Assembly (NCBI RefSeq): GCF_000701445.1 | Contig: NZ_JNIX01000007.1 | Span: 1 to 64,000 of the forward strand | Direction: 5' to 3' | From: Brevundimonas bacteroides DSM 4726 | GTDB taxonomy: Bacteria; Pseudomonadota; Alphaproteobacteria; Caulobacterales; Caulobacteraceae | Length of the DNA: 64,000 nt | Part shown: in pieces, positions 18,946 to 49,997 of the stretch | How positions within the stretch are numbered: the first letter of the stretch is position 1 | Layout of the letters: the number at the start of each line of letters is the position of its first letter | Position numbers and translations under genes: made by a program | The notes under the pieces: generated by a model | The model's input: the letters and a program-made list of their open reading frames with translations, nothing else | The model's database searches: none | Told to the model about the DNA's origin: nothing

Positions 18946-19076
18946 TCTCCCTCCCCTTCATGGGGAGGGACGACCGCGAAGCGGTCAGGGTGGGGTCCGA
19001 AAAGTAGGTTCGCACCGCTCTGCCCCACCCGCGCTCGGCTCCGCCTCGCGGTCCCTCCCCATACAGGGGAGGGAGA
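18946..19076. repeat. Palindromic intergenic repeat element
   Basis: 26-bp terminal arms, 18946-18971 and 19051-19076, are inverted copies with two or three mismatches. Each arm is itself a small hairpin (CCTCCCC...GGGGAGG). It fills the gap between convergent nudC and kdsB. Its C-run/G-run double-hairpin style matches the element inside the E2 gene at 49616-49735. Confidence 0.8.
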
Positions 19077-48329: not shown

Positions 48330-49997
48330 TCACATCCACAGCGTCGCGGGCTGTTCCAGCAGGCCCTTGATGCGCTGCACGAAGACCGCGGCGTCGTGGC
48401 CGTCGACGATGCGGTGATCGAAGCTGGACGACAGGTTCATCATCTTGCGCACGACCATCTGGCCGTCCTTCACCACCACCCGCTCCTGGATCTTGTTCGG
48501 GCCGACGATGGCGACCTCGGGGTGGTTGATGATGGGGGTGTGGACCACGCCGCCCAGCGTGCCCAGCGAGGTGATGGTGATGGTCGAGCCGGTCAGCTCC
48601 TCGCGCTTGGCCGAGCCGTCCTTGGCCGCGCCCGAGACGCGGCCGATTTCCAGCGCGGTATCGTAGGGGTCGCGCGCCTCGGCGTGGCGGACCACCGGCA
48701 CCATGAGGCCGTTCGGCGTCTGGGCGGCGATGCCCAGATGCACGGCCGCGTGCTGGGTCAGGACCCCGGCCTCGTCGTCGTAGTGGGCGTTGATCTGGGG
48801 CTGGTCGCGCAGCGCCACGACGATGGCGCGGGCGATGAAGGGCAGGACGTTCAGCTTGGGCCGGTCCGTCCCCTTGTTCTGGGCGTTCAGATGGGCGCGC
48901 AACTCCTCCAGCGCCGTGACGTCGATCTCCTCGACATAGGTGATGTGGGGGATGCGCCGGACGCTCTCGGCCATCTTCTCCGCGATCTTGCGGCGCAGGC
49001 CGATGATGCGGACCTCGGAGGAGCCTTCGGCGCGGGCGTAGGTGGAGCTGGTGGCGGAGGCCGCCGCCGGGCGCGAACCGCCAGACAGGAAGGCGTCCAG
49101 ATCGCCGTGCTCGATGCGGCCGGCGGGACCGGAGCCGGGGACGAACTGGAGCTCGATGCCCAGTTCGCGTGCGCGCTTGCGCACGGCGGGCGAGGCGAGC
49201 GGGCGGACGCCGGGGGTCTGGGCCTGACGCGCGACCGGGGCTGTGGACGCCGCCGGCACCGGTATCGACTTCGAGGTCTCGGACTTCGGCTGGGGCGCTG
49301 CCTTGGCCGTCGGAGCCGGGGCGGGCGTTGCTGCTTTCGGGGCGGCGGCGACATTGCCCGCGCCCTCCACGTCGAAACGCACCAGCGGTCCGCCCACGGG
49401 GACCTGCATCCCCGCCTCGCCGTGGAGCGCCGTGACCACCCCCGCGACGGGGCTGGTCAGTTCGACCGTGGCCTTGTCGGTCATGACCTCGGCCAGAAGC
49501 TGGTCTTCGGAGACCGCGTCGCCGACCGCGACGTGCCAAGCGACCAGCTCGGCTTCGGCCGTGCCTTCGCCCACGTCGGGGAGCTTGAAGACGTAGTTTC
49601 CGGGGGCGTCGGACTTGCCCCCCTCCCCGGCTTCGCCGGTACTCCCCCCAGAGGGGGGAGAGACGGGATCGGTCGTCTGTCCCCCCTCTGGGGGGACCGA
49701 AGCCTGCGGAGCAGGGTTCGAGGGGGGCTCAGAGGACTCGGCGGCGTTCCCCGCCCCCTCGACCTCGAACTCGACCAGCGGCCCGCCGACCGGCGACATC
49801 ACGCCCGGCTCGCCATGCAGCGCCGTGACCGTGCCCGCGACAGGCGAGGTCAGCTCCACTGTCGCCTTGTCGGTCATGACGTCGGCCAGGATCTGATCCT
49901 CGGCCACGGTGTCGCCCACGGCGACGTGCCAGGCGACGAGCTCGGCCTCGGCGGTCCCTTCGCCCACGTCGGGCAGCTTGAAGACGTAGCGACCCAT
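48330..49997 (-). CDS. bkdB: Branched-chain 2-oxoacid dehydrogenase E2, two lipoyl domains
   Basis: 555 residues from the ATG at 49997. Two lipoyl domains (4-84 and 135-215) agree at about 70 of 81 positions, each with a lipoylated lysine in MTDKATVEL (Lys44, Lys175). The linker between (about 88-128) is encoded by a palindromic repeat element. An Ala/Pro linker, the subunit-binding domain (PLASPAVRKRARELGIEL) and the catalytic acyltransferase (SSSFDHRIVDGHDAA) follow. BCKDH E2 proteins normally have a single lipoyl domain. The start overlaps the E1beta stop (TGATG). Confidence 0.95.
   Translation of the reverse strand: MGRYVFKLPDVGEGTAEAELVAWHVAVGDTVAEDQILADVMTDKATVELTSPVAGTVTALHGEPGVMSPVGGPLVEFEVEGAGNAAESSEPPSNPAPQASVPPEGGQTTDPVSPPSGGSTGEAGEGGKSDAPGNYVFKLPDVGEGTAEAELVAWHVAVGDAVSEDQLLAEVMTDKATVELTSPVAGVVTALHGEAGMQVPVGGPLVRFDVEGAGNVAAAPKAATPAPAPTAKAAPQPKSETSKSIPVPAASTAPVARQAQTPGVRPLASPAVRKRARELGIELQFVPGSGPAGRIEHGDLDAFLSGGSRPAAASATSSTYARAEGSSEVRIIGLRRKIAEKMAESVRRIPHITYVEEIDVTALEELRAHLNAQNKGTDRPKLNVLPFIARAIVVALRDQPQINAHYDDEAGVLTQHAAVHLGIAAQTPNGLMVPVVRHAEARDPYDTALEIGRVSGAAKDGSAKREELTGSTITITSLGTLGGVVHTPIINHPEVAIVGPNKIQERVVVKDGQMVVRKMMNLSSSFDHRIVDGHDAAVFVQRIKGLLEQPATLWM
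49616..49735. repeat. Palindromic repeat element in frame inside bkdB
   Basis: Two perfect 8-bp stem-loops, CTCCCCCC-AGA-GGGGGGAG (49642-49660) and GTCCCCCC-TCT-GGGGGGAC (49679-49697), are inverted copies of each other. Outer arms with C-runs and G-runs pair imperfectly (near 49618-49635 and 49710-49730). It is translated as a Pro/Gly/Ser linker (SVPPEGGQTT, SPPSGGSTGEAG). It resembles the intergenic element at 18946-19076. Confidence 0.8.

Follow-up and report, generated by a model that had tools for sequence, protein, structure and literature searches.

A palindromic repeat element read in frame within an inter-lipoyl linker of a Brevundimonas E2 gene

The linker between the two lipoyl domains of a dihydrolipoamide acyltransferase (E2) in Brevundimonas bacteroides DSM 4726 is very probably coded, for the most part, by a repeat that entered the gene, a two-part G/C-run palindrome of the REP/MITE-like class. 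The element occupies positions 49617-49728 (no strand assigned) of the 64,000-nucleotide stretch of DNA analysed here, which we call the window, and it was delimited from its inverted repeats, its reverse match to itself, its RNA fold and its absence from 56 of 103 orthologues.

The palindrome and its host gene

The E2 gene lies at 48330-49997 on the minus strand, with its ATG at 49997 and a product of 555 amino acids, as judged from the list of open reading frames and from Pfam, which finds two Biotin_lipoyl stretches, an E3_binding domain and a 2-oxoacid_dh (acyltransferase) domain. The first lipoyl domain is at approximately 49767-49991 (minus strand, residues 3-77, with bounds estimated from alignment) and the second at 49377-49589 (minus strand, residues 137-207, the best stretch for Pfam PF00364). 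Two lipoyl stretches with open reading through the element bear out the original prediction that the element codes the linker between lipoyl domains. Since the domains are intact, we presume that the enzyme works with the element included. The gene had been named bkdB; the E2 part of that identity stands on the Pfam domains, while the "branched-chain" part comes from the neighbouring genes, recognised by eye as those for E1 subunits and lipoamide dehydrogenase, because none of the NCBIfam E2 models matched the window's gene at cut-off.

The element is 112 bp long, and each of its halves consists of a G/C-run hairpin, an adjoining smaller hairpin and a G-run tail. The inner arms (49643-49665 and 49674-49696) are 96% complementary over 23 nt, and the outer arms (49617-49625 and 49720-49728) are complementary at 9 of 9 positions. 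When 49600-49750 was compared with its own genome by BLAST, 49617-49728 matched its own reverse complement (77% identity, E 4.7e-13). As RNA the same interval folds to -95.1 kcal/mol, where shuffled sequences average -74.2 (z -4.2, with 0 of 200 shuffles as low). An ungapped self-complement scan did not detect the element, because its halves are offset. The inverted repeats, reverse self match and fold together confirm a palindromic repeat translated in frame inside the E2 gene, and they correct its bounds from the 49616-49735 first proposed. Within the E2 frame the element codes the stop-free peptide PPSNPAPQASVPPEGGQTTDPVSPPSGGSTGEAGEGG. As read in the gene, the right half ("a-type", 49617-49660, minus strand, peptide SPPSGGSTGEAGEGG) was recognised by a DNA pattern match at 49619-49648, and the left half ("e-type", 49680-49728, minus strand, peptide PPSNPAPQASVPPEGG) by its hairpins and translation; the e-type peptide recurs in glyS of genome G005 and in pdhB of G120. 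Rfam's whalefall-1 family also matches weakly at 49677-49729, scoring 25.7 bits where 37 are required.

The original prediction had placed the element with an intergenic repeat at 18946-19076 (no strand assigned; identified by inverted repeats and the half-element pattern). The two do share their parts, namely the G/C-run hairpin, a small hairpin around CGAAG and the G-run tail, but the intergenic relative is of a different sub-type, with its halves arranged in the opposite way, the G/C-run hairpins outside and the G-run tails inside. The class is dispersed in this genome, where a general half-element pattern has 27 matches against 8 for its reversed control. At up to 3 mismatches in 30 bases, no second copy of the window's a-type half was found in its own genome, and the full-length profile matches there at the E2 site only. 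The window shows no enrichment of the 13-base hairpin core (3 sites where 6.6 are expected), and a symmetric G/C-run hairpin pattern was uninformative in the genome, with 31 sites for the pattern itself and 26 for its reversed control. Lack of any other genomic copy was to count against a repeat; such a lack is found, narrowly, for the exact half type in its own genome, but not for the element class.

E2 linkers across the genus

The E2 gene was matched in 131 of 131 genomes of the genus. We fetched the locus from 110 of them and could read the first linker in 103. Six loci lacked two readable lipoyl motifs and do not enter the linker counts: L122 and L123 have a single lipoyl domain, L115 and L116 are truncated by the end of a contig, L124 is interrupted by a run of N, and the first linker of L112 has both N and a TGA. 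L127 was likewise left out of these counts. The first linker contains an element of this class in 47 of the 103 orthologues and is an ordinary Ala/Pro linker in the other 56; the second linker contains such an element in 47 of 102. Among named loci with two lipoyl motifs an element is present in 9 of 26, and no element motif was found in three more distant E2 genes, from Parvularcula (L330), a Parvularculaceae MAG (L359) and a proteobacterial MAG (L329). Alignment with relatives had been proposed as a check, and it gives the anticipated picture, in which about half of the orthologues lack the segment and have a different linker. The contrary case, the same peptide coded without a palindrome, was not seen among the linkers whose DNA was inspected, except in decayed copies such as those of L019 and L071.

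Ordinary first linkers are 38-49 amino acids long (median 42, n=56, measured from one anchor), and element-bearing ones are 43-80 (median 58, n=47). Beside a 42-residue element only about 15 native residues are left (medians, 45 of the 47 alleles), as against 42 in ordinary linkers, and the element therefore stands in place of much of the native linker. Native residues made redundant by the insertion may have been trimmed afterwards.

Two further observations concern these linkers. The second linkers of L012, L022, L055, L058, L060, L071 and L094 hold stretches rich in Thr and Ser; their DNA has no G/C runs but units such as GAATTCG and GAAGACTTCGACGAC, another kind of repeat in the same permissive linker. 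The E2 genes of L122 (genome G099) and L123 (G098) have one lipoyl domain, and the linker after it is coded by an element, with a beginning that resembles linker 1 and an end that resembles linker 2; recombination between two elements would explain this arrangement, with assembly collapse as the alternative.

Presence of an element is scattered over the gene tree as if shuffled. A codon tree built from the E2 core after removal of both linkers (101 rows, L113 and L125 left out) requires at least 31 changes in presence, compared with a shuffled mean of 33.4, and 20 of the 31 are forced by well-supported branches. On a tree of the upstream flank (E1 genes at 29 loci, L014 left out), presence needs 9 changes, equal to the shuffled mean, and a protein tree scored for three states, with one row misfiled, gave 36 changes. 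The window genome and G039, its closest relative among those compared, are sisters at 100/100 on the upstream-flank tree and have different palindrome families at the E2 site.

Species may have exchanged E2 alleles, which could account for some of this scatter. That homologous recombination of this kind is the main source of the patchwork, with a few insertions shuffled round the genus, is a serious possibility, but we think it somewhat improbable. It would fit the near-identical linkers that recur across several species, as well as the finding that, on both the E2 and the upstream-flank trees, elements are distributed much as shuffled labels would be. The variety at the first linker speaks against it, since the peptide motifs there distinguish eleven half-type combination labels, three of them partial, and a further family, type II (11 alleles), and exchange of E2 alleles cannot account for the elements found in glyS, carB, and the helicase, terminase and DUF6468 genes. 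Exchange and insertion are compatible rather than exclusive, and insertion of a repeat remains our preferred explanation for the segment itself.

Related elements in other genes and genera

Elements of the class are translated in pdhB, pdhC, glyS (at two sites), carB, a helicase gene, a terminase gene and a DUF6468 gene (host genes named by Pfam/NCBIfam), with empty sites in close relatives. In carB, 9 of the 12 genomes searched are empty, with 0-15 nt between the matched parts, while G088 and G085 have 50 and 44 additional residues. The insert point corresponds to residue 486 of the solved chain 1bxr_A, which we take to be E. coli CarB, and the carB inserts have caused no visible loss of native sequence, unlike the element in the E2 linker. 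The first glyS site is filled in 11 of 18 genomes and empty in 7, the window genome being among the empty ones and reading RDPATGG; at the second, 12 of the 18 loci read are filled, and at least three palindrome families are represented (L396, L393, L282, L394, L272). An AlphaFold2 model of an insert-bearing GlyS had a mean pLDDT of 52.7 and was not used. In G039, carB is split over two contigs (L439, L290) at a type II palindrome, and the same site holds another family in G088 and G085.

A second DNA pattern, for the inner part of the arrangement seen in the window's E2 element, was found at 62 sites, distributed over 30 of the 131 genomes (control 0). Among the 61 sites listed, 22 are genic, comprising 17 of the 56 examined that lie in coding-like open frames and five placed in E2 by position, and 39 were not called or placed in genes. 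The 17 comprise seven sites in E2 (one of them in linker 2), five in the helicase gene and one each in pdhC, pdhB, carB, the terminase gene and the DUF6468 gene. The genic call, based on GC content by codon position and open frames, is a rough test: the looser script called these 17 of 56, and a stricter one called 13 and missed known E2 and pdhB sites. Half-elements matching the general pattern, taken as a control (five loci in each of six genomes), were genic-like in 2 of 30 cases, both in a gene resembling the DUF6468 host. A profile of element peptides matches in 122 of 131 genomes at E <= 0.01 and in 107 of 299 genomes of the family at E <= 1e-4, although, having been built from genic copies, it favours such copies, and many of its matches are in short frames or contain stops. 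When 17 half-elements were aligned, the result was too uneven to serve for a covariance model.

The 30 bases of the a-type half of the window's own element, with up to 3 mismatches allowed, occur in 30 of 131 genomes, at 43 sites altogether (control 0), of which 42 are within four genes. Reading frames place 39 of them (17 in E2, 14 in glyS, 5 in pdhC and 3 in pdhB), three more are inside E2 by coordinates, and one, at a contig end, is uncalled; none of the 43 was seen between genes within the genus. Different genes can match at 30 of 30 bases. Across the family the half occurs in 54 of 390 genomes and 6 of 22 genera, and in the sister genera g2 and g21 all 20 of the copies sampled lie outside coding-like frames. 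Sister genera also translate elements of the class, in the pdhC linkers of G131, G190, G175 and G164 and in pdhB and glyS of G196, and G312, from another genus, has one in a helicase-like gene. The proposed search for other copies has turned up, besides the dispersed class in the same genome, identical or near-identical halves in other genes of the genus and, in sister genera, outside coding-like frames.

It is also conceivable, though quite unlikely, that the element is kept because its RNA hairpin has a function in the transcripts of bkd, pdh and glyS, such as pausing or a role in how the mRNA is processed or how stable it is. The very stable fold (z -4.2), the restriction of the a-type in this genus to E2, pdhB, pdhC and glyS, and the perfect 30-base matches between these genes are what such a function might produce, but about half of the species have no element at each E2 linker, the same linkers are filled by other palindrome families and by the Thr/Ser-rich stretches, and no Rfam family, whalefall-1 included, reached its gathering score when the element and 14 loci bearing such elements were searched. 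The proposal that there is no element at all, and that selection on a Pro/Gly/Ser linker peptide together with codon bias made the DNA symmetrical, is scarcely credible and was rejected on the copies outside coding-like frames in sister genera, the same 30 bases being found in this condition in G194, of another genus; GC-rich Pro and Gly codons do favour C and G runs, but the ordinary linkers of the same gene are Ala/Pro/Glu/Lys-rich and have no such hairpins.

Returning to an inserted repeat, its start phase is identical at all called sites (39 of 39 for the a-type and 17 of 17 for the second pattern). Stops alone do not force this shared phase, because at 28 of 28 loci tested none of the three phases of the a-type half contains a stop and the 20 sister-genus copies have no favoured phase (8, 11 and 9 are open in phases 0, 1 and 2). 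For whole elements, in 32 E2 alleles with clear bounds, all frames are open in 12 and at least one other frame contains a stop in 20; two element copies whose unused frames were translated were stop-free in them. Stops explain part of the frame bias in whole elements.

We infer that the element has been mobile and that it is expressed. The repeat would have spread as a non-autonomous mobile sequence, and its copies would persist in genes whose product can accommodate a flexible insert, for the most part in the reading frame with a hydrophilic Pro/Gly/Ser/Glu peptide as its translation. More tentatively, and with the odds rather against it, the sub-type found in Brevundimonas may survive only in genes, the reading frames trapping it while intergenic copies are lost, and pairs of trapped copies may recombine and change protein architecture, as in the E2 genes of G098 and G099.

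Known families of palindromic repeats

In the literature that we searched, translated palindromes were not reported from Brevundimonas or from Caulobacteraceae. Caulobacter has inverted repeats known as CIR elements (Chen and Shapiro, 2003). They are reportedly associated with CcrM sites, with GANTC inside the repeat. The window element resembles them as a long inverted repeat from the same bacterial family, but it has no GANTC in 49617-49728 and it lies inside the E2 gene, while CIR elements are strictly intergenic according to the relevant passage of PMC10969869. The terminal inverted repeats of MITEs are given as 15-30 bp in a part of PMC3733652; here the outer arms are 9 nt (complementary throughout), and the longer arms lie inside.

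Passages of PMC3733652 describe REPs as stem-loops of 20-40 bp tagged with GTAG or CGTC at one end, the CGTC stems starting with A/T pairs. Intragenic GTAG- and CGTC-tagged REPs are short palindromes or dimers that are mostly intergenic as a class and sometimes genic, including in tRNA synthetases and helicases, and they occur in free-living bacteria as well (same passages). The present elements are likewise short palindromes and dimers sometimes found inside genes, but 49617-49728 contains no GTAG and a single CGTC (at 49674, in the central spacer), the stems are G/C runs without leading A/T pairs, and the halves are about 44-49 bp.

The original prediction compared the element with Rickettsia palindromic elements (RPE), which are described in sections of PMC10969869 and PMC3733652 as palindromic repeats of about 150 bp, of several families, translated in frame in unrelated genes; translated palindromes are best known there from Rickettsia, with Wolbachia named in a cited title. 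An inverted repeat of 112 bp falls roughly within the 100-150 bp range, and in-frame translation in unrelated genes is seen for E2, pdhB, pdhC, glyS, carB and the helicase, terminase and DUF6468 genes. The differences are that the host is not one of the Rickettsiales, the nearest named E2 loci being from Brevundimonas and other Caulobacteraceae, that the window element has G/C-run stems and a two-part structure, that within this genus one half type is seen only inside genes, and that the same few sites are filled by different families. For annotation, these linkers are repeat DNA and not conserved protein sequence. Across the genus, translated palindromes turn up repeatedly in pyruvate dehydrogenase genes, in carB and in glyS, at the same few permissive sites. 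With one phase at all called sites and empty sites in close relatives, they offer numerous natural replicates of the entry of repeats into proteins, from which to learn what frames and sites persist and whether genes can be the last refuge of a repeat family. We do not claim membership in RPE, but the comparison is apt as a mode of working, found here in another lineage.
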